NCBI RefSeq assembly: GCF_001429185.1
Contig: NZ_LMIW01000009.1
Location: 186,001 to 250,000, forward strand
Reading direction: 5' to 3'
DNA: 64,000 nucleotides
Source of the DNA: Terrabacter sp. Root85
GTDB taxonomy: Bacteria; Actinomycetota; Actinomycetes; Actinomycetales; Dermatophilaceae
Position numbers and translations under genes: made by a program. The notes below the pieces were generated by a model, which had not been told where the DNA came from, ran no database searches, and saw nothing but the letters and a program-made list of their open reading frames with translations. Shown here piece after piece: positions 1 through 61,986 of the stretch (position 1 is its first letter; the number at the start of each line of letters is the position of its first letter).

Positions 1-755
1 AACGAGACCGACATGAAGAGGCCGATCTTGACGGCCTTGACCGGGACGCCGACGGCACGGGCCGAGTCGGCGTTGCCGCCGACGGCGTAGATCCAGTTGC
101 CGATCTTGGTGCGCTGGAGGATGAACGCCGACAGGGCGACGAAGAGGAACCACCAGAGGACGGTGATCTCGACGGTGACACTGCCGATCTTGAAGCTCGA
201 GGCGAAGATCGCGTCGAGGGTCTTGTAGCCGTCCATCTGGTTGATGTTGGGCGTCGAGACCGAGCCGGTGACGAGCTTCGTGACCCCGAGGTTCGCGCCC
301 TGCAGCACGAAGAACGTGCCCAGGGTGATGAGGAAGCTCGGTATGCCGGTCCTCACCACCAGGTAGCCGTTGAGGAAGCCGATGGCGAGGCAGAAGACGA
401 GCGAGAGCACGGCGCCGACGATGAGGTTGATGCCGAGCTGGTAGCAGAACATCGCGTTGACGAGGCCGGCCGTGGTGACGATGACGCCGGCGGAGAGGTC
501 GAACTCGCCGCCGATCATGAGCATTCCCACGGCCACCGCGACGATGCCGATGGTGGAGGACTGGTAGAGCACGGTGAAGAACGACGCGGGCGACCGGAAG
601 GCCGGCGCGACGATGAGGAAGAAGACGAAGATGACGATCGCCGCGACGAGCGCCCCGACCTCGGGGCGGGCGAGCAGGCGGTTCGACCAGCCGAGCGTGA
701 CCCTGTTCGATGCCTCGGCTGGTGCCGAGGGTGGAGTCTTGGTGGTTTGACTCAT
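1..755 (-). CDS. Sugar (probably inositol) ABC transporter permease, 3' end cut by window edge
   Basis: A partial inner-membrane permease of the RbsC/XylH type (BPD_transp_2 family). About 251 residues are visible from an ATG at 753-755; the C-terminus lies outside the window. Several hydrophobic segments follow a short polar N-terminus, and the family-typical stretch MLMIGGEFDLSAG is near residue 80. It lies downstream of a lipoprotein binding protein on the same strand and opposite an inositol catabolic operon, so inositol is the inferred substrate. The ATPase gene is not in the window and probably lies further left. Ribose or another sugar remains possible from sequence alone. Confidence 0.9.
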   Translation of the reverse strand, partial: MSQTTKTPPSAPAEASNRVTLGWSNRLLARPEVGALVAAIVIFVFFLIVAPAFRSPASFFTVLYQSSTIGIVAVAVGMLMIGGEFDLSAGVIVTTAGLVNAMFCYQLGINLIVGAVLSLVFCLAIGFLNGYLVVRTGIPSFLITLGTFFVLQGANLGVTKLVTGSVSTPNINQMDGYKTLDAIFASSFKIGSVTVEITVLWWFLFVALSAFILQRTKIGNWIYAVGGNADSARAVGVPVKAVKIGLFMSVS

Positions 756-843
756 GGACCTCTCCGATCCGGTTTGACGAGCGAGCAGTGGAGTGCGGGA
801 AGGGCGGCCGGCCCTGGTTGCCCGGGCCGGCCGCCCCGGTGGG

Positions 844-1845
844 TCAGCGCGTGTTGTTCTTGGCGAACGGGAGGATCACGGCGATGTTCTTCGAGTCCAC
901 GAACGACGGTCCGGTCAGGACGGCGAGGCCGCCACCGATGTCGTTGCCGTTCTTCTTGTTGAGGTAGAGCGACTGGATGGCGAGGTAGCCCTGCACGTAG
1001 GGCTGCTGGTCGACCGAGAACTGGATCTTGCCGTCCTGGATCGCCTGCGCGGCGTCGACGTTGAGGTCGAAGGTGGCGAGCTTGGCCTTGCTGCTGGCCG
1101 CGTCCATCGCCTTGAGGGCGTCGAGGGCGATCGGGGCGCCGAGCGTGACGATCCAGTCGATCGAGCTGTCCTGCGCGAGCTTGGCCTGAAGGGCCGAGAC
1201 GACCGACGGGTCGTCGGCGCCGTTGACCTGGATGTTCTCCGTCGCCGGGATGCCCTTCTTGACGCCGGCGCACCGCGCCTCGAGGGCCACCGAGCCGGCG
1301 GCCTGGATGACGCAGAGGACCTTCTTGCCACCGGCGGCGGCGATGCGCTTGCCGGTCGCCTCACCGGCGAGGTTCTCGTCGGAGCCGAAGTACATCTTGG
1401 CGCCGACCTGCTGGTACTGGTCGATGCCGGAGTTGAAGGCGACGACGGGGATGCCGGCGTCGTTGGCCGACTTGACCGCACCGGCGAGGGCGTCGGGCGT
1501 GGCGAGTGTCGTGGCGATGCCGTCGACCTTCGAGTCGACGGCATTCTGGATCAGGGTCGCCTGCTTGGCCGGGTCGGGGTCGTTGGAGTACTTGAGCGTG
1601 ATGCCGCTGTTCTTCGCGGCCTGGGTGGCGCCGGCCTTGATCTTGTCCCAGAAGGTGTCGCCGGGGGTCTCGTGGGTGACCATGGCGAACGTGTAGCCGG
1701 AGTTGTCGCCGGCGCCGCTGCCGCTCCCGGCGTCGGCGGTGCTGGCGGGGGCGCCGCCGCTGCTGCACGCCGCGAGGGCGAGGGCGGCGGCCGTGGCCAT
1801 GCCGGCTGCGACGGTCAGGCTCTTGCGAGTCCGAGTCGGAGTCAT
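844..1845 (-). CDS. Sugar/inositol ABC transporter substrate-binding lipoprotein
   Basis: A 333-residue periplasmic-binding-protein-like receptor (Peripla_BP_4 type, RbsB/IbpA-like). It starts MTPTRTRKS, with a hydrophobic stretch ending in the lipobox ALAAC. Cys27 would be lipidated and the mature protein anchored outside the membrane. The open frame extends further upstream, but the lipoprotein signal and the GAAAGGA ribosome site just before 1845 fix this start. A permease follows on the same strand. The divergent iol operon suggests inositol as ligand; this is inferred from context, not from binding residues. Confidence 0.88.
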   Translation of the reverse strand: MTPTRTRKSLTVAAGMATAAALALAACSSGGAPASTADAGSGSGAGDNSGYTFAMVTHETPGDTFWDKIKAGATQAAKNSGITLKYSNDPDPAKQATLIQNAVDSKVDGIATTLATPDALAGAVKSANDAGIPVVAFNSGIDQYQQVGAKMYFGSDENLAGEATGKRIAAAGGKKVLCVIQAAGSVALEARCAGVKKGIPATENIQVNGADDPSVVSALQAKLAQDSSIDWIVTLGAPIALDALKAMDAASSKAKLATFDLNVDAAQAIQDGKIQFSVDQQPYVQGYLAIQSLYLNKKNGNDIGGGLAVLTGPSFVDSKNIAVILPFAKNNTR

Positions 1846-2233
1846 CGTTGATTCCTTTCGTTGCGTCGCGGTGGCCCGGTCGCCGGAGTGGCGCGACGTT
1901 CTGTGACGGTCGATCCGTCGATCAGGGTGGAGCCCGAATGCCGTGTGCCGCCTGGCACGTGAGGTGCGGGCTGGAGGGGTGTCGGGTCGTGTCGACCCGG
2001 CCGGTGCGCCTGTGGTGCGCGTGGGCTGAGCGGTCTGGCTGCGTCGCGTCCGGTGCGGACGGTGTGGGGCGAGGTCGTCGCCCGGAAGGTGTGCGGGGAT
2101 CTCGGCGAGCTCCGGCGACGTGGTGCGCCTCCGTGCTCGCACTGGCTCCTCCGTCGCGGGCGGACATCGGTGTCGATGTCTGCCGGTCCCGGCGTCGGTG
2201 CCAGCGATTGGAGGATGCTCCTCTTCCTGCATG
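1846..2233. other. Long GC-rich leader region without a convincing gene
   Basis: This stretch lies between the binding-protein start and the divergent promoter. Open frames exist on both strands but have no recognisable protein and no ribosome site. If the inferred leftward promoter is right, it forms a 5' untranslated leader of roughly 350 nucleotides for the transporter mRNA. I found no riboswitch I recognise in it. Confidence 0.4.
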
Positions 2234-2307
2234 CATGTCAAGAGATTGATCAAACATCAGAATGTCCTAACATTTGCTTGACATGGCGACGGCCACGGCA
2301 GGACCAT
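2234..2307. promoter_or_regulatory. Bidirectional iol promoter with back-to-back -35 boxes and IolR-like operator
   Basis: The perfect inverted repeat CATGTCAAG (2234-2242) / CTTGACATG (2277-2285) places a consensus TTGACA pointing outward on each side. Rightward, TTGACA at 2278-2283 is followed after 18 bases by GACCAT (2302-2307), a weak -10. Leftward, TTGACA is followed after about 18 bases by CATCCT. Between the -35 boxes lie TGTCCTAACA (2263-2272), which fits the KGWCHTRACA consensus I recall for Corynebacterium glutamicum IolR, the small palindrome AATGT-CCTA-ACATT (2261-2274), and TTGATCAA (2246-2253). A repressor here could control uptake and catabolism together. No iolR gene is in the window. 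Confidence 0.65.
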
Positions 2308-2411
2308 CGTTCTCGAAGGGACGACGACGTCGAGGCGCTCGCCGTCCGGACCTCACGGCGACCACCCCCACCGGGTCGCCACCCACCGCGATCACCCAAG
2401 GGAGTGTGCAC

Positions 2412-3416: not shown

Positions 3417-4444
3417 GCGACGTGGACGCCATGGACACCACCACCCCCGCCGCCGGCGACACGGCATACGACGTCGTTGCGATCGGACGCACCGGCGTCG
3501 ACATCTACCCGCTCCAGCACGGCGTGGGGCTCGAGAAGGTCCGCACGTTCGAGAAGTTCCTCGGCGGCAGCGCGACGAACGTCGCGGTGGCGGCAGCCCG
3601 CCACGGGCACCGGACCGCGCTCGTCACGCGGACCGGGCAGGACGCGTTCGGACGCTACATCCACGAGGCGCTGCGCGATTTCGGGGTCGACGACTCCTTC
3701 GTCTCCGCCGTCGCCGGCCCGCCGACCCCCGTCACCTTCTGCGAGGTCTTCCCGCCCGACGACTTCCCGCTGTACTTCTACCGCTACCCGACCGCTCCGG
3801 ACCTCATGATCGAGGCCGACGAGCTGCCGCTCGACGCGATCCGCGACGCCGGCGTCTACTGGGCGACCGTCACGGGGCTGTCGCAGGAGCCGAGCCGGGC
3901 CGCGCACTTCCGCGCCTGGGACGTCCGGGCCCGCCGCACCCACACGGTGCTCGACCTCGACTACCGGCCGATGTTCTGGTCCGACCCGGCCGAGGCGAGC
4001 GTGCAGGTCGGGCGCGCGCTCGACCACGTGACCGTCGCCGTCGGCAACCGCGAGGAGTGCGAGGTCGCCGTCGGCGAGACCGACCCCCAGCGAGCGGCCG
4101 ACGCGCTGCTCGAGCGCGGCGTCGAGCTCGCCGTCGTCAAGCAGGGCCCCAAGGGGGTGCTCGCCGCGACCCGCGACGAGCGGCTCGAGGTCCCGCCCTT
4201 CCCCGTCGACGTCGTCAACGGCCTCGGTGCCGGCGACGCGTTCGGGGGCGCCCTCTGCCACGGCCTGCTCGAGGGCTGGGACCTGCGGCGCGTCCTCGAG
4301 TTCGCGAACGTCGCAGGTGCGATCGTCGCCAGCAAGCTCGAGTGCTCCACCGCGATGCCGACCTCCGCCGAGGTCGACGAGCGCCTGGCCACCGCCGGCC
4401 GGCAGGCCTCACCGTTCGCCACCACCGCCGAGGAGGCGCGATGA
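3413..4444 (+). CDS. iolC: 5-dehydro-2-deoxygluconokinase
   Basis: A PfkB-family sugar kinase of 343 residues that phosphorylates 2-deoxy-5-keto-gluconate in inositol breakdown. Visible are the substrate-binding GGSATNVAVAAARHG stretch and the C-terminal ATP/anion-hole motif GLGAGDAFGG, whose Asp (residue 275) is the expected catalytic base. The GTG start overlaps the iolG stop as GTGA, suggesting translational coupling; an in-frame ATG at 3431 is an alternative. The stop overlaps the next gene as ATGA. Family and operon position make the assignment firm. Confidence 0.92.
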   Translation: MSDVDAMDTTTPAAGDTAYDVVAIGRTGVDIYPLQHGVGLEKVRTFEKFLGGSATNVAVAAARHGHRTALVTRTGQDAFGRYIHEALRDFGVDDSFVSAVAGPPTPVTFCEVFPPDDFPLYFYRYPTAPDLMIEADELPLDAIRDAGVYWATVTGLSQEPSRAAHFRAWDVRARRTHTVLDLDYRPMFWSDPAEASVQVGRALDHVTVAVGNREECEVAVGETDPQRAADALLERGVELAVVKQGPKGVLAATRDERLEVPPFPVDVVNGLGAGDAFGGALCHGLLEGWDLRRVLEFANVAGAIVASKLECSTAMPTSAEVDERLATAGRQASPFATTAEEAR

Positions 4445-5364: not shown

Positions 5365-6281
5365 GCGACAACGAGCGCTGGGTGCGGCCCCTGGGGAGCG
5401 CCGGCACGGCGGAGTGGTCGGTCGCCATCGACGACGCCGTCGACGGGTGGTCGCACACCCGGTTGTATGCCGCCGCGCTGGCTGCCGGGGAGAGCCGCAC
5501 CGTCGCGGCCGGGGAGTGGGAGCACGTCGTCGTGCCGCTCTCGGGATCCGTCGCCGTCACGGCCGTCGACCCCGAGGGCCTCGAGCACGAGGCCGTCCTC
5601 GCGGGTCGGGCCTCGGTCTTCGCCGGGCCCACCGACGTCGCCTACGCCACGCGCGACTGCGACGTCACGGTGACCGCGGAGGGCGGTCCCGCCACGATCG
5701 CCGTCTGCGGCGCCCGCGCGACGCGACGGCACACGCCGCCGTTCCGTCACGTGGGCGTCGCAGACGTGCCCGTCGAGCTGCGCGGCGCGGGCGTCGCGTC
5801 CCGCGAGGTCCGCAACTTCGGCATCCCCGGCGTCCTCGACGCCGACTCGATCATCGCCTGCGAGGTCATCACCCCCGGCGGCAACTGGAGCTCCTACCCG
5901 CCGCACAAGCACGACGAGGAGCGGCCGGGGGTCGAGACGGAGCTCGAGGAGATCTACTACTTCGAGGTCGCCCCGTCGGCTGGTGCTCCGGAGGCTGCAG
6001 GCACGAGCCCGGTCGGCTACCAGCGGGTCTACGGCACCGACGACCGGCCGATCGACGTGCTCGCCGAGGTGCGCTCGGGCGACGTCGTCCTCGTGCCGCA
6101 CGGCTGGCACGGCCCGGCGATGGCCGCCCCCGGCTACGACCTCTACTACCTCAACGTCATGGCCGGCCCGGGTGCCGAGCGGGCCTGGCTCATCTGCGAC
6201 GACCCCGCACACGGCTGGGTCCGCGACACGTGGTCCGACCAGCCGGTCGACCCCCGACTTCCCCTTGGAGGTGCTCGATGA
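5361..6281 (+). CDS. iolB: 5-deoxy-glucuronate isomerase
   Basis: A 306-residue double-cupin (KduI/IolB family) enzyme converting 5-deoxy-glucuronate to 2-deoxy-5-keto-gluconate. Metal-site residues are visible in SSYPPHKHDEE and, near the C-terminus, in PHGWHGPAMAAPGYDLYYLN, the family hallmark. The GTG start at 5361 overlaps the previous stop (GTGA). The stop overlaps the ATG of iolD. Length matches the family. Confidence 0.93.
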   Translation: MSDNERWVRPLGSAGTAEWSVAIDDAVDGWSHTRLYAAALAAGESRTVAAGEWEHVVVPLSGSVAVTAVDPEGLEHEAVLAGRASVFAGPTDVAYATRDCDVTVTAEGGPATIAVCGARATRRHTPPFRHVGVADVPVELRGAGVASREVRNFGIPGVLDADSIIACEVITPGGNWSSYPPHKHDEERPGVETELEEIYYFEVAPSAGAPEAAGTSPVGYQRVYGTDDRPIDVLAEVRSGDVVLVPHGWHGPAMAAPGYDLYYLNVMAGPGAERAWLICDDPAHGWVRDTWSDQPVDPRLPLGGAR

Positions 6282-8248
6282 CGAGCGACACCCACGCGGC
6301 CGCGACGGTGCGTCTGACCGTGGCCCAGGCCGTGGTGCGCTTCCTCGCCAACCAGTGGAGCGAGCGCGACGGCGAGCGGCAGAAGCTCTTCGCCGGCTGC
6401 TTCGGGATCTTCGGCCACGGCAACGTCGCCGGGATCGGCCAGGCGCTGCTGCAGAACGAGCTCGCCGACGGCGAGGAGCACCTCCCGTACGTGCTCGCCC
6501 GCAACGAGCAGGCGATGGTCCACACGTCCGTCGCATACGCCCGCCAGAAGGACCGCCTGCAGACGTGGGCGTGCACCGCGTCCGTCGGTCCCGGCTCGAC
6601 GAACATGCTGACCGGCGCCGCCCTGGCGACGATCAACCGTCTGCCCGTGCTGCTGCTCCCGTCGGGCACCTTCGCGACGCGAGTGTCCTCCCCGGTGCTC
6701 CAGGAGCTCGAGCTGCCGTGTGCCGCCGACGTGACGGTCAACGACGCCTTCCGCCCGCTGTCGAAGTTCTTCGACCGGGTCAGCCGTCCCGAGCAGCTGC
6801 CGTCGGCGCTGCTCGGTGCGATGCGGGTGCTCACCGACCCCGTCGAGACGGGCGCCGTGACGATCTCGCTGCCGCAGGACGTGCAGGCCGAGGCGCACGA
6901 CTGGCCGCTCGAGCTCTTCGCGCCGCGCACGTGGCGGGTGGCGCGTCCGCTGCCCGAGGCCGTCGACGTCGCCGACGCCGCAGCGGTCATCCGCTCGGCG
7001 AAGCGGCCGCTCGTCGTCGCCGGTGGCGGCGTGCACTACAGCGGCGCCGAGGAGGCGCTCCGCGCGTTCTGCGAGGCCACCGGCATCCCCGTCGGTGAGT
7101 CGCAGGCCGGCAAGGGGTCCCTGCCGCACGGGCACCCGCAGGAGATGGGTGCGGTCGGCTCGACCGGCACGACGGCCGCCAACGCGCTCGCCGCAGAGGC
7201 CGACGTCGTCATCGGCATCGGCACGCGGTGGAGCGACTTCACCACTGCCTCGCGGACAGCCTTCCAGGACAACGGGGTCCGCTTCGTCAACGTCAACGTC
7301 GCGCGCTTCGACGCCGGCAAGCACTCGGGGCTCTCGGTCGTCGCCGACGCCCGGGAGGCGCTCGTCGCGCTCACTGCGGCGCTCGACGGGTATGCCGTCG
7401 ACGACGCCCACCGGTCACGCCAGGCCGCGCTGTGGGCCGAGTGGGACGCCTCGGTCGAGGCGGCCTTCCACCCCGCTCCGGAGGTCACCGACCGGCTGGC
7501 CGATGGCCTGCTCACCCAGGGCCAGGTGCTCGGCGCGGTCAACGAGCTGACCGACCCCCGCGACGTCGTGCTCTGTGCGGCGGGCTCGATGCCCGGCGAC
7601 ATCCACAAGCTGTGGCGGGTGCGCGACCGCAAGGCGTACCACGTCGAGTACGGCTACTCCTGCATGGGTTACGAGGTGCCGGCCTCGCTCGGCATCCGTC
7701 TCGCCGACGAGTCGCGCGACGTCTTCGCCATGGTCGGCGACGGCGGCTACCTCATGATGCCGACCGAGCTCGTCACGGCGGTGCAGGAGCGCATCAAGGT
7801 CATCGTCGTCCTCGTGCAGAACCACGGCTTCCACTCGATCGGATCGCTGTCGGAGTCGCTCGGCTCGCAGCGCTTCGGCACGAGCTACCGCTTCCGTGGT
7901 GAGTCGTCCGGACGCCTCGACGGCGCCGTCCTGCCCGTCGACCTCGCCGCCAACGCGCGCTCGCTCGGCGCGCACGTCATCGAGGTGCACTCGCTCGACG
8001 AGCTGCACCAGGCGATCAAGGAGGCCAAGGCCGCTCCGGCCGACGGCGGGCCCGTCGTCATCCACGTCGAGACCGACCCGCTCGTCCACGCGCCCGACAG
8101 CGCGTCCTGGTGGGACGTGCCGGTCTCGGAGGTCAGCGACCTCGACACGACGCGGACGGCATACGCGGAGTACGTCGACCACAAGGCCACCCAGCGTCCG
8201 CTCATCACTCCCGTCGGCACCACCTCTCACCCGGAGTCCTCGTCATGA
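6278..8248 (+). CDS. iolD: 3D-(3,5/4)-trihydroxycyclohexane-1,2-dione hydrolase
   Basis: A 656-residue thiamine-diphosphate enzyme that opens the inositol-derived ring, giving 5-deoxy-glucuronate. It has the acetolactate-synthase fold: an N-terminal pyrimidine-binding domain with the activating glutamate in RNEQAMVH, a central domain, and a C-terminal diphosphate-binding domain with GDGGYLMMP followed by the paired Asn-His of VQNHGFHS. The frame is open further upstream, but ATG 6278 overlaps the iolB stop (ATGA) and gives normal family length. It is coupled to iolH by another ATGA overlap. Confidence 0.94.
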   Translation: MTSDTHAAATVRLTVAQAVVRFLANQWSERDGERQKLFAGCFGIFGHGNVAGIGQALLQNELADGEEHLPYVLARNEQAMVHTSVAYARQKDRLQTWACTASVGPGSTNMLTGAALATINRLPVLLLPSGTFATRVSSPVLQELELPCAADVTVNDAFRPLSKFFDRVSRPEQLPSALLGAMRVLTDPVETGAVTISLPQDVQAEAHDWPLELFAPRTWRVARPLPEAVDVADAAAVIRSAKRPLVVAGGGVHYSGAEEALRAFCEATGIPVGESQAGKGSLPHGHPQEMGAVGSTGTTAANALAAEADVVIGIGTRWSDFTTASRTAFQDNGVRFVNVNVARFDAGKHSGLSVVADAREALVALTAALDGYAVDDAHRSRQAALWAEWDASVEAAFHPAPEVTDRLADGLLTQGQVLGAVNELTDPRDVVLCAAGSMPGDIHKLWRVRDRKAYHVEYGYSCMGYEVPASLGIRLADESRDVFAMVGDGGYLMMPTELVTAVQERIKVIVVLVQNHGFHSIGSLSESLGSQRFGTSYRFRGESSGRLDGAVLPVDLAANARSLGAHVIEVHSLDELHQAIKEAKAAPADGGPVVIHVETDPLVHAPDSASWWDVPVSEVSDLDTTRTAYAEYVDHKATQRPLITPVGTTSHPESSS

Positions 8249-11721: not shown

Positions 11722-12726
11722 ATGACCGTACGCATCGGCATGATTGGCCCGGGCGGCATGGGCCAGGCTCACATCGACCGGATCCACACCGTCATCGCGG
11801 GCGGGCGGGTCGTCGCCGTCTCCGACGTCGACCCGGCCCGAGCGGCCGAGGTGGCGTCGCGGGTCGACGGGACGGCATACGCGTCCTCGGCCGAGCTCAT
11901 CGCCGCCGACGAGGTCGACGCCGTCATGATCTGCAGCTACGGGCCGGCGCACGAGGTGGACGTGCTCGCGGCCATCGCGGCGGGCAAGCCCGTCTTCTGC
12001 GAGAAGCCGCTGACGCCGACGGCGGAGGCCGCGCTGCGGATCATGGAGGCCGAGCAGGCCGGCGGGCGGCGCCTGGTGACAGTCGGATTCATGCGTCGCT
12101 TCGATCGGAGCTACCGCGAGATGAAGACGCTGCTCGACTCGGGCGAGCTCGGCGAGACGCTCATGGTCCACTGCGCGCACCGCAACCCGACCGTGCCCGA
12201 GCACTACACGTGGGACATGGCCATCAACGACACCGCGATCCACGAGGTCGACACGATGCGCTGGCTGCTCGGCGAGGAGTTCGTCTCGGCGCGGGTCGAC
12301 AAGCCGAAGAAGACGTCGCTGCGCTTCGAGCACCTCCAGGACCCACTCGTGCTCATCCTCGAGACGGAGTCGGGGGTGCGCGTCGACGACGAGATCTTCG
12401 TCAACTGCCAGTTCGGCTACGACATCCGCTGCGAGGCGGTTGCCGAGAAAGGCACGGTGTCGTTGGGCGACCAGAACGCGATCGTCGTGCGCGACGGCGT
12501 CGGGGTGCGCAACGCCATCGCCCGCGACCACAACGACCGCTTCTGGGGCGCCTTCGTCACCGAGGTGCAGGAGTGGATCTCCGCAGTGGCGCGGGGCGAG
12601 CACACCGGGTCGACGTCGTGGGACGGGTATGCCGCCGCGTGCGTCTGTGACGCCGGTGTCCGAGCGCTCACCGACGAGGGCGTCGTCAAGGTCGAGATGA
12701 TCGCGAAGCCCGACTTCTACGCCTGA
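11722..12726 (+). CDS. iolG: Second inositol 2-dehydrogenase-like protein (Gfo/Idh/MocA)
   Basis: A 334-residue paralogue of the first operon gene, with Rossmann motif [16 protein letters not shown] and the active-site stretch [15 protein letters not shown]. It is the last gene of the operon. It probably oxidises another inositol stereoisomer (scyllo- or D-chiro-inositol) or shares myo-inositol oxidation; the two proteins differ enough to suspect different substrates. The start ATG 11722 follows AAGGAG. A strong hairpin follows the stop. Confidence 0.85.
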
Positions 12727-12990: not shown

Positions 12991-14808
12991 GTGGCCGGCG
13001 CGGGGCCGGAGCTCAAGCGGTCGCTCAACCAGCGGCAGCTGACGATGATCGCCATGGGCGGCGTCATCGGGGCGGGCCTGTTCGTCGGCTCGGGCACCGT
13101 CATCCACGACACGGGCCCCGGGGCGTTCATCACCTACGCCCTGTGCGGCGTCCTCATCATCATGGTGATGCGGATGCTGGCCGAGATGGCCGTGGCCAAC
13201 CCGTCGACCGGCTCGTTCGCCGACTACTCCCGCAAGGCGCTCGGTGACTGGGCGGGCTTCTCCGTCGGCTGGCTCTACTGGTACTTCTGGGTCATCGTCG
13301 TGGGCTTCGAGGCCGTCGCCGGCGCCAAGGTCATCAACTTCTGGCTGCCGGGGGTGCCGACGTGGGTGCTGAGCCTGCTGCTCATGCTCCTCATGACGGG
13401 CACCAACCTCATCTCGGTCTCGTCGTTCGGGGAGTTCGAGTTCTGGTTCGCCGGGATCAAGGTCGCGGCGATCATCGTCTTCCTCGCCTGCGGTGCCCTC
13501 TTCGTCTTCGGCATCTGGCCGAACGCCGACCTCGACTTCAGCAACCTCACCGCGCACGGCGGCTTCTTCCCCAACGGCGGACTGGCGGTCACGGCGGGTG
13601 TCGTGACGGTGATCTTCTCGATGGTGGGCGCCGAGATCGCGACCATCGCCGCAGCCGAGTCCGACAACCCGGAGCGGGCCGTGTCCAAGGCCGCGAACTC
13701 CGTCATCACCCGCATCGCCATCTTCTTCGTCGGCTCGATCTTCCTGCTCGCGGTGATCCTGCCGTGGAACTCGGCCACCCTGGAGGCGTCGCCCTACGTC
13801 GCGGCCTTCCAGGAGATGGGCATCCCGTATGCCGACCACGTGATGAACGCGGTCGTGCTGACCGCCGTGCTCAGCTGCCTCAACTCCGGCCTCTACACCG
13901 CGTCCCGGATGCTCTTCGTGCTGGCCGCCCGCCGGGAGGCACCCGCCTCGATGGTCTCGGTCAACTCCCGTGGCGTGCCGATGGTCGCCATCCTGGCCTC
14001 GTCGGTCGTCGGCTTCCTCGCCGTCATCATGGCCGCCGTCTCGCCCGACACCGTCTTCTCGTTCCTGCTCAACTCGTCCGGCGCCGTCATCCTCTTCGTC
14101 TACCTGCTCATCGCCGTCTCGCAGATCATCCTGCGCTACCGGGCTGACGCGTCGACGCTCAAGGTGAAGATGTGGTGGTTCCCCGCCCTGTCGGTCATCA
14201 CGGCGCTCGGCATCGTCCTGGTGCTCGTCCAGATGGGACTCACCGAGGACGTGCGCATCCAGCTCGTGCTGAGCCTCGTGTCGTTCGGCATCGTCCTCGT
14301 CCTCTTCTTCATCAACCGGGCCCGCATCGCCCGCCTGCCCGAGCGTGTCGCGCCCGACCACACCGGTGAGGCACGGCGCGTGCTCGTGCTCGCCAACCAG
14401 ACCCTCGAGGCCGACGAGCTGATGCGCGAGCTCCAGCGCATCGACGCCATGGGCAAGGCGACCTACTACGTCTGCGTCCCCGCCAGCGCCGTCGAGACGG
14501 GCACCGCCTCGACGCACGGCGCCGTGTCCGTCGCCGAGGCGACGACCGAGGCGGCGCAGGCCCGGCTGGACCGGACCCTCGAGGCCCTCACGGCGCACCA
14601 CCTCGACGCGACCGGCGGGCTCGGCGACTACCGGCCCCTGCGTGCCCTCCGGGCGGCGGTGAGCCACTTCGACCCCGACCAGATCGTCATCGTGACGCTG
14701 CCTGCCACGGACTCGATCTGGCAGCGCTTCGAGGTCGTCGACCGGGCCGGCGAGCTCGGTCTGCCGGTGACCCACGTCGAGGCCGCCTCGCTCGTCATGC
14801 AGGCCTGA
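12991..14808 (+). CDS. Amino-acid permease (APC/AAT family) with C-terminal USP-like cytoplasmic domain
   Basis: A 605-residue protein. Residues 1 to about 450 form a 12-segment transporter of the GABA/aromatic amino-acid permease type, with the first-helix motif GGVIGAGLFVGSG and MLAEMAVANPSTGSFADY. Residues from about 465 onward are soluble and look like a universal-stress-protein-type alpha/beta domain (RRVLVLANQTLEADEL ... DQIVIVTLPATDS). The GTG start at 12991 gives the expected N-terminus. It is followed after 3 bases by a two-domain USP gene, so uptake and a nucleotide-sensing module are likely coupled. The substrate is not predictable beyond amino acids. Confidence 0.88.
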   Translation: MAGAGPELKRSLNQRQLTMIAMGGVIGAGLFVGSGTVIHDTGPGAFITYALCGVLIIMVMRMLAEMAVANPSTGSFADYSRKALGDWAGFSVGWLYWYFWVIVVGFEAVAGAKVINFWLPGVPTWVLSLLLMLLMTGTNLISVSSFGEFEFWFAGIKVAAIIVFLACGALFVFGIWPNADLDFSNLTAHGGFFPNGGLAVTAGVVTVIFSMVGAEIATIAAAESDNPERAVSKAANSVITRIAIFFVGSIFLLAVILPWNSATLEASPYVAAFQEMGIPYADHVMNAVVLTAVLSCLNSGLYTASRMLFVLAARREAPASMVSVNSRGVPMVAILASSVVGFLAVIMAAVSPDTVFSFLLNSSGAVILFVYLLIAVSQIILRYRADASTLKVKMWWFPALSVITALGIVLVLVQMGLTEDVRIQLVLSLVSFGIVLVLFFINRARIARLPERVAPDHTGEARRVLVLANQTLEADELMRELQRIDAMGKATYYVCVPASAVETGTASTHGAVSVAEATTEAAQARLDRTLEALTAHHLDATGGLGDYRPLRALRAAVSHFDPDQIVIVTLPATDSIWQRFEVVDRAGELGLPVTHVEAASLVMQA

Positions 14809-18746: not shown

Positions 18747-18804
18747 GGCATACCTCCTGGTCTCGGGGCTTCGTCGCCACAGTAGCGCCGCGCCCACGCG
18801 ATGA

Positions 18805-20623: not shown

Positions 20624-20659
20624 GCACCCGGCATACAACGGGTGACGATCACGGGTGCT
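20623..20659. terminator. Possible bidirectional hairpin between convergent genes
   Basis: AGCACCCG (20623-20630) can pair with CGGGTGCT (20652-20659), with a 21-base loop. It sits exactly between two convergent stops. One copy of the CGGCATAC octamer lies inside. Confidence 0.4.
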
Positions 20660-50005: not shown

Positions 50006-51054
50006 GCAATCGAGCGAGCTGGACGAACGTCGCGCTGACGGCGCTCCCCGCCGCCATCTGGGGATCCACGTATGCCGTCACGCAGCAGTGGCTCCCACCC
50101 GGCCGTCCGCTCTTCGCCGCCACCGTGCGGGCCCTACCCGTCGGCCTGCTCATGCTCCTGTGGCTCCGGCGCCTGCCTCGGGGCGACTGGTGGTGGCGCT
50201 CGCTCGTCCTCGGCTCGCTCAACATCGGGCTCTTCTACGCGCTCCTCTTCTTCGCGGCCTACCGCCTCCCGAGCGGCCTCGGCACCACGCTCGTCGCCAC
50301 CGCTCCCATGGTGACGATGGGTGTCTCGTGGTTGCTCCTGGACCAGCGACCTGCCCGGGTCTCGGTGGCGGCCGGGCTGGTCGGCCTCGTCGGGGTCGCG
50401 ATGCTCGTGCTCCAGAACGGCCTCGACCAACCTCTCGACCCGGTCGGCCTCGGGGCCGGGCTCCTCGCCGTCGTGCTGTCGTCGTGCGGCTTCGTCCTCA
50501 CGAGGAAGTGGGCGCCCACCGACGACGTCGTCACCATGACGTCGTGGCAGCTCGTCGCGGGTGGCCTCGTGCTCCTGCCGATCGGGCTCGTCGTCGAGGG
50601 CGCGCCGCCGGCCCTCGACCTGCCGGCCGTGGGGGCGCTCGTCTTCCTCGGTCTTCTCGGCAGCGGCGTCGCCTACGTCCTGTGGTTCCGCGGTCTGGCG
50701 ATCCTCGGCCCGACCTCCGCCTCGATCATCGGCCTCGTCAACCCGGTGGTCGGCGTCCTGCTCGGCGTCGCGCTCCTCGGTGAGCGCTTCGGTCCGGTGC
50801 ACCTCGTCGCCATGGTCCTCGTCATCGGCAGCGTCCTCGCAGCGCAGGAGCCGGTCCGGGCCCGCCTCGCCCCTCGCCAGGCGAGGCCCTGGTCGCCCAG
50901 AAGAGCAGCACGGGATCGGTGTTTCCCTGTGCCACGTGCCGACCCTGGCCGCCGAGGGCGACCGCGGCGCACGGCATACCGCCTCGGAGGCGCACGGTTG
51001 CGAGCAGACACGAGGAGCGCAACGCGAGCTCGGGCAGGCAGCGTGCGCCCCTAG
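49999..51054 (+). CDS. EamA/DMT family exporter with atypical Arg-rich tail
   Basis: A 351-residue drug/metabolite transporter with ten hydrophobic helices in residues 8-282 (AAIWGSTYAVTQQWLPPGRP; GPTSASIIGLVNPVVGVLLG). Typical family length is near 300. The last 60 or so residues are Arg/Pro/Ala-rich, unlike any transporter tail. A short perfect inverted repeat CCTCGCC-A-GGCGAGG (50872-50886) lies where they begin, so the natural stop may have been lost. ATG 49999 lies inside an operator palindrome. Confidence 0.85.
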   Translation: MEGNRASWTNVALTALPAAIWGSTYAVTQQWLPPGRPLFAATVRALPVGLLMLLWLRRLPRGDWWWRSLVLGSLNIGLFYALLFFAAYRLPSGLGTTLVATAPMVTMGVSWLLLDQRPARVSVAAGLVGLVGVAMLVLQNGLDQPLDPVGLGAGLLAVVLSSCGFVLTRKWAPTDDVVTMTSWQLVAGGLVLLPIGLVVEGAPPALDLPAVGALVFLGLLGSGVAYVLWFRGLAILGPTSASIIGLVNPVVGVLLGVALLGERFGPVHLVAMVLVIGSVLAAQEPVRARLAPRQARPWSPRRAARDRCFPVPRADPGRRGRPRRTAYRLGGARLRADTRSATRARAGSVRP

Positions 51055-53454: not shown

Positions 53455-54822
53455 ATGGCCACCGACACCGACCACACCTTCGACGTCATCGTCATCGGGC
53501 TCGGACCGGGCGGTGAGCACGTCGCCGGGAGCCTTGCCGAGCGCGGCCTGCGCGTGCTCGGTGTCGACCGCAGACTCGTGGGGGGCGAGTGCCCCTACTG
53601 GGGCTGCATCCCGTCGAAGATGATGATCCGCGCCGCTGACGCGCTCGCCGAGGCCCGTCGTGTCGACGGGCTGGCCGGGTCGGTCGGCGACGTCGTGCCC
53701 GACTGGTCGGTCGTCGCCACGCGCATCCGCGAGGAGGCCACCGACGACTGGGACGACAGGGTCGCCGTCGAGCGACTCACCGGCAAGGGCGCGACCTTCG
53801 TCCGCGGCACGGCCCGCATCGCGGGGCCGGGACGCGTCGACGTCGACGGCACCGCCTACACGGCGACGACGGGCATCGTCGTCAACACCGGCACGACGGC
53901 TGCGATCCCACCCGTCGACGGCCTCGCGGACACGCCCTACTGGACCAACCACGACATCGTCGAGGCCACCGAGCTGCCCGGGTCGATCGTCGTGCTCGGC
54001 GGCGGCGCCATCGGCTGCGAGCTGAGCCAGGTCATGGCCCGATTCGGCGTCGACGTGACGGTCGTCGAGGCTGCCGACCGCATCCTCGCGCTCGAGGAGC
54101 CGGAGGCCTCCGACCACCTCGAGAGTGCGCTCGAGGCGGACGGCATCACCGTCCGCGTGGGTGTCGGCGCCGAGAAGGTGACCCACGACGGCTCGACGTT
54201 CACGGTCACGCTCGCCGACGGCTCGACGCTGGCGGCTGAGAAGCTCCTCGTCGCGACCGGCCGCCGCGCCGGCCCCGCCGCCGTCGGGCTCGACACGGTC
54301 GGCGTCGCCAAGGACTCGCGCACTGCGCCCGTCGACGACCGCTGCCGCGTCGCCGACGGCGTCTGGGCCGTCGGCGACATCACCGGCAAGGGCGCCTTCA
54401 CGCACGTCTCGATGTACCAGGCGGGTGTCGTCATCCGTGACGTCCTCGGCGACGACGGCCCACCGGCGGAGTATGCCGCCCTCCCGCGCGTGACGTTCAC
54501 CGATCCCGAGGTCGGTGCCGTCGGGATGACGGAGGCCCAGGCTCGCGAGAAGCTCGCGAACGTCCAGGTGGGCGTGACCCCGCTCGGCGAGACGACCCGC
54601 GGCTGGATCGCCAAGGCGGACGGTCTCATCAAGGTCGTCGCCGACGCCGACCGCGGCGTCCTCGTCGGCGCCACGACGATGGGTCCGGCCGGGGGAGAGG
54701 TGCTCGGCGCGCTCGCCGTCGCCGTGCACGGCGAGGTCCCGATCGAGCGGCTCCGCTCGATGATCTACGCCTACCCGACGCTCCACCGCGGCATCGAGGA
54801 CGCGCTCGGTCGCCTCGCCTGA
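53455..54822 (+). CDS. Pyridine nucleotide-disulfide oxidoreductase (dihydrolipoyl dehydrogenase / mycothione reductase-like)
   Basis: A 455-residue FAD enzyme. The FAD motif is IGLGPGGEHVAGSLA; the redox-active disulfide is GGECPYWGCIPSK (CxxxxC); the NAD motif is VVLGGGAIGCELSQV; WAVGDITGKGAFTHV and the C-terminal YPTLHRGIED (catalytic His) complete it. The CPYWGC form, in place of CLNVGC, marks an actinobacterial subgroup of unsettled substrate. It is not next to E2 or glycine-cleavage genes. Confidence 0.87.
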   Translation: MATDTDHTFDVIVIGLGPGGEHVAGSLAERGLRVLGVDRRLVGGECPYWGCIPSKMMIRAADALAEARRVDGLAGSVGDVVPDWSVVATRIREEATDDWDDRVAVERLTGKGATFVRGTARIAGPGRVDVDGTAYTATTGIVVNTGTTAAIPPVDGLADTPYWTNHDIVEATELPGSIVVLGGGAIGCELSQVMARFGVDVTVVEAADRILALEEPEASDHLESALEADGITVRVGVGAEKVTHDGSTFTVTLADGSTLAAEKLLVATGRRAGPAAVGLDTVGVAKDSRTAPVDDRCRVADGVWAVGDITGKGAFTHVSMYQAGVVIRDVLGDDGPPAEYAALPRVTFTDPEVGAVGMTEAQAREKLANVQVGVTPLGETTRGWIAKADGLIKVVADADRGVLVGATTMGPAGGEVLGALAVAVHGEVPIERLRSMIYAYPTLHRGIEDALGRLA

Positions 54823-54990: not shown

Positions 54991-55848
54991 ATGGCACAGC
55001 GACTGCTCGCCCTCGACCTCGACGGCACGACTCTCAACCACATGGGCGAGCTCTCCGACCGCGTCCGCGACGCCGTCCAGGCCCTGCCCGACGACGTCGC
55101 CGTCGTCATCGCGACGGGCCGGTCGATCATCGCGACGACGCCGATCCTCGAGGCTCTCGGTCTGCGCCAGGGCTACGCCATCTGCTCCAACGGTGCGCTG
55201 ACGCTCCGCCTCGACCCGTCTGCGGCAGAGGGCTACTCGATCATCGACATGGTGACCTTCGACCCCCAGGCGGTGCTCGAGAAGATGCGCGTCGCCCTCC
55301 CCGACGCGCTCATCGCCGTCGAGGAGCCCGGCGTCGGCTTCAAGGTGAGCAAGCACTTCCCCGACGGCGAGCTGATGGGTGAGTCGCGCGAGGTCGACTG
55401 GGACGAGCTCATCGCCCACCCCGTCACGCGCGTCACCCTGCGCCAGCCCGAGGCCACGGCCGAGGAGTTCATGGAGATGGTCGAGCGAGCCGGTCTGCAC
55501 GGGGTGTCGTATGCCGTCGGCTGGTCCGCGTGGCTCGACATCAACCCGGAGGGCGTGTCCAAGGCGAGTGCGCTCGAGCTCGTCCGTCGCCAGCTGCGCG
55601 TCGAGCCGATCCACACCGTCGCGTGCGGCGACCAGCGCAACGACCTCGAGATGTTGCACTGGGCCGCGTGGGGCGTCGCCATGGGCAACGCCCCCGACCA
55701 GGTCAAGGCCGTCGCCGACGAGGTCACCGGCCACGTCGACGACGACGGCCTCGTCCCGGTGCTCGAGGCCGTCGCGCAGGCGGCGCGGGCAGGCGTCGCC
55801 TTCCGCGACGGCGTCGAGTCGGCCGCGACCGCGCGGCTCGAGCTCTAG
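54991..55848 (+). CDS. HAD family hydrolase (Cof/IIB type)
   Basis: A 285-residue phosphatase. Motif I is LLALDLDGTTLN (nucleophile Asp), motif II VVIATGRS, motif III the Lys of GVSKASALE and motif IV VACGDQRNDLEML. A type-IIB cap lies between about 85 and 190. Substrate unknown, probably a sugar phosphate. ATG 54991. Confidence 0.9.
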   Translation: MAQRLLALDLDGTTLNHMGELSDRVRDAVQALPDDVAVVIATGRSIIATTPILEALGLRQGYAICSNGALTLRLDPSAAEGYSIIDMVTFDPQAVLEKMRVALPDALIAVEEPGVGFKVSKHFPDGELMGESREVDWDELIAHPVTRVTLRQPEATAEEFMEMVERAGLHGVSYAVGWSAWLDINPEGVSKASALELVRRQLRVEPIHTVACGDQRNDLEMLHWAAWGVAMGNAPDQVKAVADEVTGHVDDDGLVPVLEAVAQAARAGVAFRDGVESAATARLEL

Positions 55849-57375: not shown

Positions 57376-58698
57376 GTGTCATCCACCGCCGACCAGACCG
57401 ACGAGACCACGTCACAGGCCACCCGGGCATCGCACGACGACGTCCAGCGCACTCTCGAGGCCGTGTGGCGCATGGAGGCCGCCAAGGTGACGGCCGTCGT
57501 CGCCCGCGTCGTCGGCGACGTCGGGCTCGCCGAGGACCTCGCGCAGGACGCGTTCGTGCAGGCGCTCGAGCAGTGGCCCCGCGACGGCATCCCGACGAAG
57601 CCGGGTGCCTGGCTGACGGCGACCGCGAGGCGGCGGGCCATCGACCGCATCCGGCGCGACGTCAACCTCGCGAGCAAGCTGCAGCAGGTGGGACACATGG
57701 AGGAGCTGCGCGTGGCCGAGCTGGCCGAGGGCGACTTCGACGCCGCGCTCGAGGACATCGACGACGACGTCCTCGGCCTCGTCTTCGCCGCGTGCCATCC
57801 CGCCCTGACCGCCCAGGCGCGAATCTCCTTGACGCTGAGGATGATCGGTGGCCTGACGACGCGCGAGATCGCCCGTGCCTTCCTCACCACCGAGCCGACC
57901 ATCGCCCAGCGCATCTCGCGGGCGAAGAAGACCCTGAGCCAGGACGGCATCACCATCGAGGTGCCGTCGGGCGCCGAGCTGGCAACACGTCTCGCGTCGG
58001 TCCTCGAGGTCGTCTACCTCATCTTCAACGAGGGGTATGCCGCCACGTCAGGTCGCGACTGGGTGCGTGGCGACCTCATGGAGGAGGCCATCCGGCTCGG
58101 TCGGGTGCTCTCGGCCCTCGCGCCCGGGGAGCCCGAGGTGCACGGCCTGCTCGCCCTCATGGAGATCCAGGCCTCGCGCACGCGGGCCCGCATCGGTCGC
58201 GACGGCGAGCCCGTCCTGCTCCTCGACCAGGACCGCACGAAGTGGGACTGGGCCCTCATCCGCCACGCGCTCGCCGCCCTCGAGCGCGCCGTGTCTCTCG
58301 TCGACCCCGGCCGCGGGGCGACCGGCCCGTACGTGCTGCAGGCCGCCATCGCCGCCTGCCACGCCCGCGCCCGCACGGCCGACGCCACCGACTGGGCGCG
58401 CATCGTCGCGCTCTACTCCCAGCTCGGAGCCAACCGCCCGTCGCCCGTCATCGACCTCAACCGTGCGGTGGCCCTGTCCTACGCCGACGGGCCGGCCGCG
58501 GCGCTCGAGGTCGTCGACGGGCTCGTGGCTTCAGGCGCGCTCGCCGACTACCACCTGCTGCCGAGCGTCCGTGGCGACCTGCTCGCCCGCCTCGGCCGCG
58601 ACGAGGAGGCCCGCGCCGAGTTCGCCCGCGCGGCCGGGATGACGCAGAACGACGCCGAGAGGGCGCTCCTGCTGCGCCGCGCGGCCGGCGAGGACTGA
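57376..58698 (+). CDS. ECF42-group RNA polymerase sigma factor with C-terminal TPR-like extension
   Basis: A 440-residue sigma-70 family factor. Sigma2 (about 28-100) has DVGLAEDLAQDAFVQALEQWP and a -10-binding region; sigma4 (about 135-185) has GGLTTREIARAFLTTEPTIAQRISRAKK. The roughly 230-residue C-terminal extension contains the DLNRAVA motif of ECF42 proteins and takes the place of an anti-sigma factor. It lies 30 bases after the DGPF gene, the typical pairing, and is expected to drive that gene. GTG start 57376. Confidence 0.9.
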   Translation: MSSTADQTDETTSQATRASHDDVQRTLEAVWRMEAAKVTAVVARVVGDVGLAEDLAQDAFVQALEQWPRDGIPTKPGAWLTATARRRAIDRIRRDVNLASKLQQVGHMEELRVAELAEGDFDAALEDIDDDVLGLVFAACHPALTAQARISLTLRMIGGLTTREIARAFLTTEPTIAQRISRAKKTLSQDGITIEVPSGAELATRLASVLEVVYLIFNEGYAATSGRDWVRGDLMEEAIRLGRVLSALAPGEPEVHGLLALMEIQASRTRARIGRDGEPVLLLDQDRTKWDWALIRHALAALERAVSLVDPGRGATGPYVLQAAIAACHARARTADATDWARIVALYSQLGANRPSPVIDLNRAVALSYADGPAAALEVVDGLVASGALADYHLLPSVRGDLLARLGRDEEARAEFARAAGMTQNDAERALLLRRAAGED

Positions 58699-58796
58699 CC
58701 TCCACCGGCACGAAAGCGCCGACGGGGTCGATGTATCAGGACTACCGTCGAGAGACCCTGCACTGACAACGGCTGTCGATCGGGTGGAGGTCTGCC

Positions 58797-59630
58797 ATGG
58801 CCGTGGTGCACCAGAGCTGTGTCGGCTACGGCGCCGAGCCCTTCGCGTCGCTCGTCGCCGACTACCCCGGTGACGACGTCTACCCGTCGGCCGACTTCCG
58901 CACCGAGTGGGGGCCTGTCTTCCACCGTGGCCGGCTCGACGGCAGCGCGCGCGTGCTCGTCCTCGGCCAGGATCCGGCGACGCACGAGGCGATCTCGCGC
59001 CGCATCCTCGTCGGTGAGGCCGGCCAGCGCGTCCAGGGGCTGCTGGCCAAGATCGGCGTCCACACGGCATACGCCATGGTCAACGTCTACCTCTACAGCG
59101 TCTTCGGGCAGGCGGCCGGGAGCCGCCACGCCAAGGACGCCGCCATCGCGGCCTACCGGCACCGCTGGCTCGACGCCCTTCTCGTCGGCACCGACGTCAC
59201 CGCCGTCGTCGCGCTCGGCGACCTCGCGGCGACGGCGTATGCCGCGTGGGCACGGACCCAGCCCGCCACCGCTGGGTCGCTGCACCTGGCAGCGATCCGG
59301 CACCCTACGTACGCGGAGGGATTCGCTCGTGCGTCGGGCAAGCCGCTCGCCGAGACGACCGCCTCGCAGCTTGCGAACTGGAACGACCACCTCGGCGACC
59401 TCGCCGCGCACGTGACCCCCGAGGGACCCACCGACCTGACGCCGTATGCCGCCACGTGGGGTCCCACGGACCTCGCACCCATCCCGGAGGTCGACCTCCC
59501 ACCCGGCGCGCCCGCGTGGTGGCGCGACGTCGACGCGTGGGCGACCCGCACCGGCGACGACAAGCAGACGAAGCGCGCGACGATCAGCGTCGTCGTCCCG
59601 AAGGGAGCCCGCACATGGCCAGCTCTGTGA
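58797..59630 (+). CDS. Uracil-DNA glycosylase family protein
   Basis: A 277-residue UDG-superfamily protein. Motif A is VLVLGQDPATHE (catalytic water-activating region) and motif B is LAAIRHPTYAEGF. The N-terminus carries ADYPGDDVYPSADFRTEWGPVFHRGR. No Fe-S cysteines are visible, unlike family 4 and 5 enzymes. The C-terminal 60 residues are extra. Base excision of deaminated bases is inferred. Its last 16 bases overlap the next gene. Confidence 0.8.
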   Translation: MAVVHQSCVGYGAEPFASLVADYPGDDVYPSADFRTEWGPVFHRGRLDGSARVLVLGQDPATHEAISRRILVGEAGQRVQGLLAKIGVHTAYAMVNVYLYSVFGQAAGSRHAKDAAIAAYRHRWLDALLVGTDVTAVVALGDLAATAYAAWARTQPATAGSLHLAAIRHPTYAEGFARASGKPLAETTASQLANWNDHLGDLAAHVTPEGPTDLTPYAATWGPTDLAPIPEVDLPPGAPAWWRDVDAWATRTGDDKQTKRATISVVVPKGARTWPAL

Positions 59631-61057: not shown

Positions 61058-61244
61058 CGGCACACGCCCGCCTCGGCGCGCCCTCCGCTCGCGGCGGCAC
61101 AGCGTGGAGCCAGCCGCCCAGCGCCTCCTGTGTGTCGCTGACCCCGACGGGTGCGGCTGCGCTCGGGCCCAGCGGCCGCCGCCCGAACACGATCCGAACA
61201 CGACCCGGACCGAGGCTTCACCTGGGTGCGCGAACGTAGGGGCC

Positions 61245-61865
61245 ATGAACACCGACACCCGCCGGACGACCGGCCTCAAGCGCTCCTCCACCGCCCTCGG
61301 TGCGGCGGTCCTCGTCCTCGGCAGCCTCGCGCTCGGCGCCTGCTCGAAGACCGACTCGACCGGCACCGCCGCCAGTGCCATCGGTGCCGCGTCAGGGCAG
61401 GACTCGGCAGCCGGCGACGGCGACACCATCGACCTCGTCTCGGCAGCCGTAGACACCCCGGCCGTCGACGACTCGACCCAGGGGGCGGCCGCCGCCGCGA
61501 AGGGTGACCGCAAGGGTCTGCGCGCCCGGATGCTCCGGGCGCTGCACGGCACGTGGGTCACCGAGGGCACGTCCGGTCCGGTCACCCACCAGGCGATCCG
61601 CGGCGACGTCACCGCGGTCTCGAAGGGCTCGATCACGGTCAAGGCCAAGGACGGCTTCTCGCAGACCTTCGCCATCGCAACGGACACGAAAGTCCGGGTC
61701 CGTTCCAACGGCAAGGGCGCCGACTCGACCATCGGGGCCGTCACGATCGGTGCCAAGGCGCTCGTCTCCGGCGTCGGCGCGACGAACCCGACGGCCCGTC
61801 TCGTCGTCTTCAAGGTCACGACGTCCCAGCCCGGCGGCTCTCCCTCCCCGAGCGCGACGAGCTGA
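61245..61865 (+). CDS. Lipoprotein with DUF5666-like domain
   Basis: A 206-residue exported lipoprotein. The signal ends in LALGAC with Cys33 as lipidation site. A flexible acidic/Ala-rich linker (35-90) leads to an OB-like beta domain with GDVTAVSKGSITVKAKDGFSQTFAI ATDTKVRV typical of DUF5666. Function unknown. The ATG 61245 gives the signal peptide directly. Confidence 0.8.
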   Translation: MNTDTRRTTGLKRSSTALGAAVLVLGSLALGACSKTDSTGTAASAIGAASGQDSAAGDGDTIDLVSAAVDTPAVDDSTQGAAAAAKGDRKGLRARMLRALHGTWVTEGTSGPVTHQAIRGDVTAVSKGSITVKAKDGFSQTFAIATDTKVRVRSNGKGADSTIGAVTIGAKALVSGVGATNPTARLVVFKVTTSQPGGSPSPSATS

Positions 61866-61871
61866 GACGCG

Positions 61872-61947
61872 GCACCCCGTCCGGGGACGGGCCGGACGGG
61901 GTGCACAGACGAGGGAGGCGCCCCGCACCCAGCGGGACGCCTCCCTC
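61872..61947 (+). terminator. Two tandem terminator hairpins
   Basis: Stem 1: GCACCCCGTCCGG (61872-61884) with 61892-61904, loop 7. Stem 2: GAGGGAGGCG (61911-61920) with CGCCTCCCTC (61938-61947). Both follow the lipoprotein gene. Confidence 0.75.
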
Positions 61948-61959
61948 ATTGACGGTCGG

Positions 61960-61986
61960 CACGGCATACGACCCGGGTATGCCGTG
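61960..61986. repeat. Inverted pair of the CGGCATAC octamer
   Basis: CACGGCATAC (61960-61969) and GTATGCCGTG (61977-61986) form a perfect 10-base inverted repeat with a 7-base loop between convergent genes. It is the only place in the window where two copies face each other closely. Confidence 0.7.

Follow-up and report, generated by a model that had tools for sequence, protein, structure and literature searches.

We have found that the octamer GTATGCCG is dispersed at high density through a 64,000-nucleotide stretch of the Terrabacter sp. Root85 genome (contig NZ_LMIW01000009.1, positions 186,001 to 250,000; hereafter the window) and through the remainder of that genome. Synonymous codon choice, intergenic and antisense copies and conservation between species together support selection on the DNA of the octamer, not on protein, as a sequence-only reading of the window had proposed. 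We lean, with modest conviction, to the view that the octamer works like a DNA uptake sequence, the class to which it appears closest on account of its balanced strands, even spacing, terminator-like hairpins, dialects among relatives, patchy loss and the upkeep of its sites.

The window contains 34 matches to GTATGCCG (20 on the forward and 14 on the reverse strand), whereas dinucleotide shuffles of the window yielded a mean of 0.68 and a maximum of 3, and 34 was reached in none of 100. The heptamer GTATGCC occurs 35 times and extends to the full octamer in 34 cases, as the sequence-only reading had estimated by eye, and the near neighbours that it called rare are rare (GTATGCG 5 copies, GTATGCA and GTATGCT 0). 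Its 24 example coordinates were right to within 3 bases; ten further sites (20629, 24324, 34604, 40883, 43729, 46690, 48196, 50070, 50972 and 55509) complete the set. Genome-wide (4,865,335 bases in 15 contigs) there are 2300 copies, 1168 forward and 1132 reverse, compared with 237 (112 + 125) for the reversed pattern GCCGTATG, a control that may overlap the motif (GCCGTATGCCG), so that the background is overstated in some genomes. In a 464-kb sample, composed of the window and 400 kb of one contig of the same genome (G000), GTATGCCG was the strongest octamer, with 216 copies. Markov models of order 2, 3, 4 and 5 predict 6.6, 11.5, 58 and 149, models of higher order having much of the motif built in; the corrected count suggested by the earlier reading is thus far above expectation at second order. 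Mean spacing is ~2.1 kb. The octamer is preceded by C in 137 of the 216 copies and followed by T or C in 184, and the remaining flank signal is mainly a three-base rhythm tracking the codon frame. The sequence TTGGCCTT is likewise over-represented in this genome (29 copies, 3.2 expected).

Throughout the 400 kb, tyrosine is encoded by TAT in 184 of 2669 codons (7%), but in 82 of 106 (77%) within the context xxG-TAY-GCC-Gxx. Similarly, alanine before TAC is encoded by GCA in 39 of 81 cases after nCG versus 6 of 250 otherwise. Among the 182 copies in this region, 63 lie wholly between genes (20 expected) and 6 lie across a gene edge, and the 113 genic copies include 65 read as Tyr-Ala in sense and 31 as Ala-Tyr in antisense. 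The window also has copies in spacers, as had been reported, although the intergenic excess is not seen in the window alone (five of 34 copies not wholly genic, 3.9 expected). The claim that all reading frames are used stood in so far as several are, but they are used unequally: 17 of the 29 sites wholly in called genes are Tyr-Ala (TAT GCC) and 8 are Ala-Tyr (GCA TAC). The rarer frames named at the time are present (GGC-ATA at 341, 28880 and 42281; ATG-CCG at 41968), and the copy at 41194 overlaps a start codon at 41196. These counts bear on the explanation that the octamer reflects a preference for codons or dipeptides, or else is a dispersed mobile repeat. The 65 sense Tyr-Ala copies speak for such a preference, but Tyr-Ala dipeptides are hardly in excess (374 versus 345 expected), codon choice depends on bases that flank the dipeptide, in the motif context, copies between genes are far too many, and flanks are little conserved beyond the C before and the T or C after. 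Codon or dipeptide preference was rejected on the codon-context and intergenic evidence, and the explanation as a whole can practically be dismissed. Neither of the outcomes that the sequence-only reading had named as refuting its observation was thus obtained.

An order-wide survey of 396 genomes, drawn evenly from 19 families, detected strong GTATGCCG enrichment only in the family of the window, where 22 of 35 genomes had 625-3277 copies. The other 361 genomes had at most 180 copies, the highest of them with 195 controls, and some reached up to about fourfold above control at counts below 150. Within the family (186 genomes from 53 genera), 105 genomes of 30 genera, one per species, carried 617-4724 copies, 15 carried 150-499 and 66 carried fewer than 150; bearers were defined by at least 500 copies, and the lowest ratio of copies to controls among the 105 was 2.5. 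Low counts also occur within bearer genera: G469 has 19 copies against 3681 and 1062 in two congeners, G497 has 50 against 394-1901 in thirty congeners, and G407 (89% complete) has 37 against 1251-1660 in four congeners. The family, called Dermatophilaceae in GTDB, takes in Intrasporangiaceae and their kin, probably with the named records below among them. In these records (TadA flanks of ~17-21 kb), GTATGCCG is abundant in Intrasporangium oryzae (15 copies) and chromatireducens (8), Knoellia koreensis (17), subterranea (14) and sinensis (19), a Lapillicoccus metagenome-assembled genome (MAG; 12), Flexivirga endophytica (21) and Leekyejoonella antrihumi (10), and scarce in Phycicoccus (1 and 0), Mobilicoccus (0), an Ornithinimicrobium MAG (2) and Luteipulveratus (0). 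The total over 59 loci of other taxa, mostly Streptomyces, was 16 in 1.13 Mb, with 17 for the reversed control. The comparison with related genera that had been suggested thus confined strong enrichment to one family, in which some relatives use other words.

Alignments of the window with seven congeners covered 19-35 kb per genome, at 85-93% identity. Copies of the window were intact in 92 of 119 site-by-genome comparisons, whereas one-mismatch octamers were unchanged in 61 of 145, and for random octamers the share was 36-63%, varying by genome; the same sites recur across the congener genomes, so these comparisons are not independent trials. Eleven of the 27 lost copies read GTACGCCG. Copies are also more evenly spaced than chance would have them: gaps below 1 kb make up 21.9% of 169 (pairs merged) versus 32.4% for draws from 436 perfect or one-mismatch sites, a value as low being reached in 0 of 2000 draws, although for gaps below 500 bases only P = 0.06 was obtained. 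The widest gap in the 400 kb, 10.3 kb, spans a ribosomal protein operon. Across the 105 bearers the forward strand holds 47-53% of copies. The strand bias relative to origin and terminus that the sequence-only reading had proposed looking for was not seen in the closed genome G380, where, with all splits tried and the origin unmapped, the best split assigned 53.5% of 170 copies; 93% of random assignments match it (19 readable 20-kb stretches). Segregation motifs of the KOPS/AIMS type show strand skew along replichores. Even spacing and high copy number would suit a nucleoid, segregation or chromosome-organising motif, but strand bias is lacking, terminator-like pairs are left unexplained, and switching or loss of the word among close relatives is unlikely for a core function. 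A segregation motif is therefore not supported by the balanced strands, and we regard this group of functions as quite improbable.

Position relative to genes is far from uniform. In the 400 kb, convergent, tandem and divergent gaps contain 3.65, 1.56 and 0.42 copies per kb, respectively; without paired copies there are 10 in 4.9 kb, 25 in 24.9 kb and 6 in 14.1 kb. Twelve neighbouring pairs lie less than 60 bases apart, ten with forward-reverse orientation (+-), one reverse-forward (-+) and one with both copies forward (++). All 11 opposite pairs are intergenic, lie within 95 bases of the 3' end of a gene, avoid divergent gaps and fold as hairpins, and they may terminate transcription. Intergenic copies exceeded expectation in the samples of relatives as well, each scored for the word that it carries (34 versus 11.2 in G541, 12 versus 4.4 in G140, 17 versus 3.8 in G070/G192, 9 versus 3.7 in g9 and 58 versus 20.4 in G380). 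The +- arrangement accounts for 7 of 7 close pairs in G070/G192, 8 of 12 in G380 and 2 of 3 in g9. The highest densities lie in convergent gaps for G541, G140, G070/G192 and G380. The five -+ pairs of G140 may be a palindromic core overlapping itself.

Words other than GTATGCCG were sought in seven genera with low counts and in further samples added later (40-100 kb each), and four dialect words are now known in the family: GTATGCCG, GGATGCCG, CGTACGCC and CGAAGGGG(G). The top octamer of G541 is GGATGCCG, with 106 copies in 100 kb (11.5 expected) and no GTATGCCG; the 34 intergenic copies of that sample are copies of this word. A single genome, G140, carries 2281 copies of CGTACGCC, compared with 52-567 in the other 37 of 38. 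The word CGAAGGGG(G) belongs to two genera, in which CGAAGGGGG reaches 1939, 1317, 1666 and 1311 copies in four genomes, compared with no more than 72 in the remaining 34 of 38; the samples of these genera are those with 7 of 7 and 2 of 3 close pairs in the +- arrangement. One base separates GGATGCCG from GTATGCCG, and CGTACGCC from CGTATGCC. Aligned with their preferred leading C, the four words share C-G-x-A-x-G, which could be chance for CGAAGGGG; the core of CGTACGCC, CGTACG, is palindromic. A clear word was not found in 40-100-kb samples of g4, g6, g11, g15, g109, g118, G469, G497 and G407, from which weak words could escape. G474 was considered as a further bearer of CGTACGCC, which is raised there (71 versus 20); its genus was not counted because the excess does not lie between genes (7 intergenic copies, 7.8 expected). 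In the same genome ACTTGTTT is strongly repeated (11 copies in 40 kb, 0.14 expected), perhaps as a tandem repeat. The Luteipulveratus locus may have a raised count of CGTACGCC (12 copies in 21 kb, where the 59 other loci would predict about 5), which is not its top octamer.

Codon skew, tested for the dialects GTATGCCG, GGATGCCG and CGAAGGGG, follows the local word. TAT fills xxG-TAY-GCC-Gxx in 81 of 105 and 65 of 79 cases in two GTATGCCG genomes, and in 0/14, 1/10, 0/9, 0/4, 1/8, 0/7 and 0/13 in seven other samples. GAT fills xxG-GAY-GCC-Gxx in 23 of 42 cases in G541 and in at most 18% elsewhere, being slightly raised in G000 (9 of 72 versus 3% otherwise). GAA fills xxC-GAR-GGG in 16 of 40 and 9 of 16 cases in the CGAAGGGG samples and in at most 9% elsewhere, save in one word-free genome (4 of 19) where GAA is common anyway (19%). 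On a tree of TadA (one gene, 35 rows), which places the genome of the window as sister to Intrasporangium oryzae, G541 is nested inside a GTATGCCG clade. The GTATGCCG label requires 8 changes on this tree, which 75 of 500 shuffles also attain, so clustering is not clear; the pattern could be accounted for by an ancient word that was lost or switched several times.

The family possesses the components for DNA uptake, but their presence does not account for the distribution of words among its genomes. The genome of the window has comEA-comEC, and ComEC was present in all 33 family genomes searched (20 with the word and 13 without). In G000 and relatives we read a tad locus (ssd-like, tadA, B, C, flp, E, F), naming its genes by order and motif. 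TadA of this locus was detected by E-value in 38 of 40 further genomes; G460 yielded a fragment, and all matches in G466 were weaker and resembled paralogues. PilM_2, a marker of type IVa pili, was found in 0 of 33 family genomes; a type IVa pilus was accordingly set aside as the uptake machine and the Tad system became the candidate. An apparent loss of TadF in two word-free genera was ruled out, the gene having been missed in calling. Three kinds of Tad ATPase locus occur in one genome (L096, L097 and L098); the third (L098, with two Flp pilins) is limited to certain genera, and its presence does not track that of the word. RecC occurs in 11 of 25 genomes tested.

Three classes of genome-wide words have been distinguished, namely Chi, uptake sequences and HIP (Elhai 2015, PMC4390886), and to the second of these GTATGCCG is likened here, without being filed as a member. 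Neisserial DNA uptake sequences (DUS) share with it thousands of exact copies, inverted pairs at gene ends, and dialects alongside dialect-free relatives, as described in PMC3630211. They differ in that the hosts here are Gram-positive, the word is an octamer instead of a 10-12-mer, the pilus is Tad instead of type IVa, and no ComP-like receptor was found in these genomes. Among flanked copies the long form GTATGCCGTC is commoner (67 of 216), and it has ATGCCGTC in common with the neisserial AT-DUS, for which we used the core GCCGTCTGAA with the leading AT taken from its name; the likeness is probably chance. The uptake signal sequences (USS) of Haemophilus influenzae resemble GTATGCCG in being dense (~1 kb apart, ~2.1 kb here) and in forming opposite close pairs at gene ends, which in that species act as terminators (PMC7811141). 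Their full length in the model of that paper is 31 bases, whereas a clear preference outside the codon rhythm extends here only 1 base before and 1-2 after the octamer. Micrococcus luteus, whose transformation needs its tad genes, resembles the genomes described here by gene presence and order, with comEA-comEC and a tad order of tadA, B, C, flp, E, F (PMC4322843). It differs in its need for two tad loci; a sequence preference was not seen reported, and the phrase 'uptake sequence' occurs 0 times in PMC4322843.

Several observations weigh against an uptake sequence. The defining trait of DUS and USS is preferential uptake of DNA bearing the word, and the evidence on GTATGCCG comes from sequence comparison. 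According to the account in PMC7811141 (2020), the only tested competent bacteria with a strong uptake preference are species from two families, both Gram-negative. Single-change variants of DUS are more numerous than perfect copies (PMC3630211), whereas GTATGCCG is stricter and lacks a one-mismatch excess: its one-mismatch octamers stand at background (304 versus 327.4 expected), which implies that under a balance of selection and mutation little but the perfect octamer is favoured. Forms with the mismatch at positions 1 and 5-8 number 33 (41.2 expected), and the one-mismatch form GGATGCCG is raised in the sample of the window's genome (99 versus 47.5 expected). The gene-end pattern is not universal, in that the close pairs of G541 are two -+, two ++ and one +-, and convergent gaps are not the densest in g9. 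Nor do competence genes covary with the word: comEC and tad are as common in genomes without it, so that no gene is tied to it, and no Tad subunit of the GGATGCCG genome stands apart from its GTATGCCG kin among the seven tad-locus proteins compared, so that this comparison yielded no receptor.

The main rival is a Chi-like site read by AdnAB or AddAB, a helicase-nuclease resecting DNA ends that would stop degrading and start recombination at the octamer, with many copies retained in genomes for that reason. Chi words are abundant, of octamer size and strictly read, and the missing one-mismatch excess fits strict reading. They are also species-specific words linked to recombination (PMC3630211). 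RecC, however, was detected in a single one of the 13 GTATGCCG genomes tested, G252, and in none of the other 12, that of the window included; as G252 bears the same word as they do, the word is not tied to the RecC enzyme. RecBCD-Chi is thereby ruled out for the genome of the window; the AddAB/AdnAB form was not covered by that search. Strands are balanced in the closed genome (bias being common, not defining, for Chi), and hairpin pairs behind genes and the excess in convergent gaps are left without a reason. For these reasons we hold a Chi-like site to be unlikely, if still worth serious attention.

A word kept by an orphan methyltransferase together with methylation-directed repair, or by another sequence-specific repair bias, would be comparable to cyanobacterial HIP. 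The HIP octamers are numerous, some genomes use alternate words, and every word has its methyltransferase (PMC4390886); the patchy loss of GTATGCCG within genera resembles HIP. HIP1 is a palindrome, whereas GTATGCCG differs from its own reverse complement and the words here are not palindromes, although CGTACGCC contains CGTACG. Moreover, a pure repair bias predicts neither hairpins at gene ends nor the 8.7-fold difference between convergent and divergent gaps, and we judge such an origin improbable. Of the functions that the sequence-only reading had offered without choosing between them, the uptake-like signal fits best, given the spacing, inverted pairs and dialects, and the segregation motif is not supported, given the lack of strand bias.

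If GTATGCCG does act in uptake, a DNA receptor on the cell surface, belonging to a competence system of Flp/Tad pilus and ComEA-ComEC, would bind fragments bearing the octamer better, and the DNA of close relatives would then be taken up and recombined more often. Such an uptake bias could slowly write the octamer into the genome and maintain it. The expected outcome would be about one copy per 2 kb on both strands, evenly spread where the coding cost is low, and often in hairpin pairs that possibly double as terminators. Relatives whose receptor had changed its taste would use GGATGCCG, CGTACGCC or CGAAGGGG(G). Uptake as the cause, a receptor as the reader of the word, termination of transcription by the hairpins and competence itself are inferred. 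The positions of the octamer in the window are given in Table 1.

Table 1. Copies of GTATGCCG in the window. Genes are from a simple purpose-made caller; "kept" gives the aligned congeners in which the octamer is intact.
Position	Strand	Context	Kept
341..348	+	antisense to gene 3-755(-), Gly-Ile (GGC ATA)	
3462..3469	-	antisense, Ala-Tyr	1/1
5465..5472	+	Tyr-Ala	2/2
7390..7397	+	Tyr-Ala	2/2
8157..8164	-	antisense, Ala-Tyr	2/2
11873..11880	-	antisense, Ala-Tyr	1/3
12627..12634	+	Tyr-Ala	3/3
13827..13834	+	Tyr-Ala	outside congener alignments
16431..16438	-	Tyr-Ala	outside congener alignments
18746..18753	-	edge of called gene (ends 18746)	1/1
20629..20636	-	between convergent genes 19781-20623 (+) and 20666-21253 (-)	0/1
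24324..24331	-	Tyr-Ala	3/3
28812..28819	+	antisense, Ala-Tyr	0/1
28880..28887	+	antisense, Gly-Ile	1/1
34604..34611	-	Tyr-Ala	3/3
38425..38432	+	Tyr-Ala	3/4
40883..40890	-	Tyr-Ala	3/6
41194..41201	+	overlaps start codon called at 41196	6/6
41968..41975	+	Met-Pro	4/5
42281..42288	-	antisense, Gly-Ile	6/7
43624..43631	+	antisense, Ala-Tyr	2/2
43729..43736	+	antisense, Ala-Tyr	0/2
46690..46697	+	Tyr-Ala	6/6
48196..48203	-	Tyr-Ala	4/5
50070..50077	+	Tyr-Ala	5/5
50972..50979	-	antisense, Ala-Tyr	outside congener alignments
54471..54478	+	Tyr-Ala	7/7
55509..55516	+	Tyr-Ala	5/7
58035..58042	+	Tyr-Ala	6/7
59065..59072	-	antisense, Ala-Tyr	6/7
59237..59244	+	Tyr-Ala	1/7
59444..59451	+	Tyr-Ala	4/7
61962..61969	-	left arm of inverted pair between convergent genes 61245-61865 (+) and 62012-63070 (-), terminator-like	3/3
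61977..61984	+	right arm of inverted pair 61962-61984	2/3

A prior account of the octamer or of actinobacterial uptake words was not found, as judged on titles and abstract openings, which does not establish absence from print. Taken at their widest, our results would describe the first DNA uptake sequences outside Gram-negative bacteria: family-wide words for a bacterium's own DNA, with a competence system based on a Flp/Tad pilus as their reader. There would be at least four dialects, able to switch by single bases, along which the family would be split into DNA-exchange groups. The chances of that broader proposal seem to us evenly balanced. If it is true, this would be a second, unrelated case of uptake words with dialects, this time in cells that have one membrane and another kind of pilus, and the origin, switching and loss of such words would become open to study. 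It would also suggest a simple way to transform such actinobacteria, by adding the octamer to the DNA. If uptake is not the cause, the octamer is an unexplained and strongly selected genome-wide signal, with at least 500 copies in each of 105 genomes.

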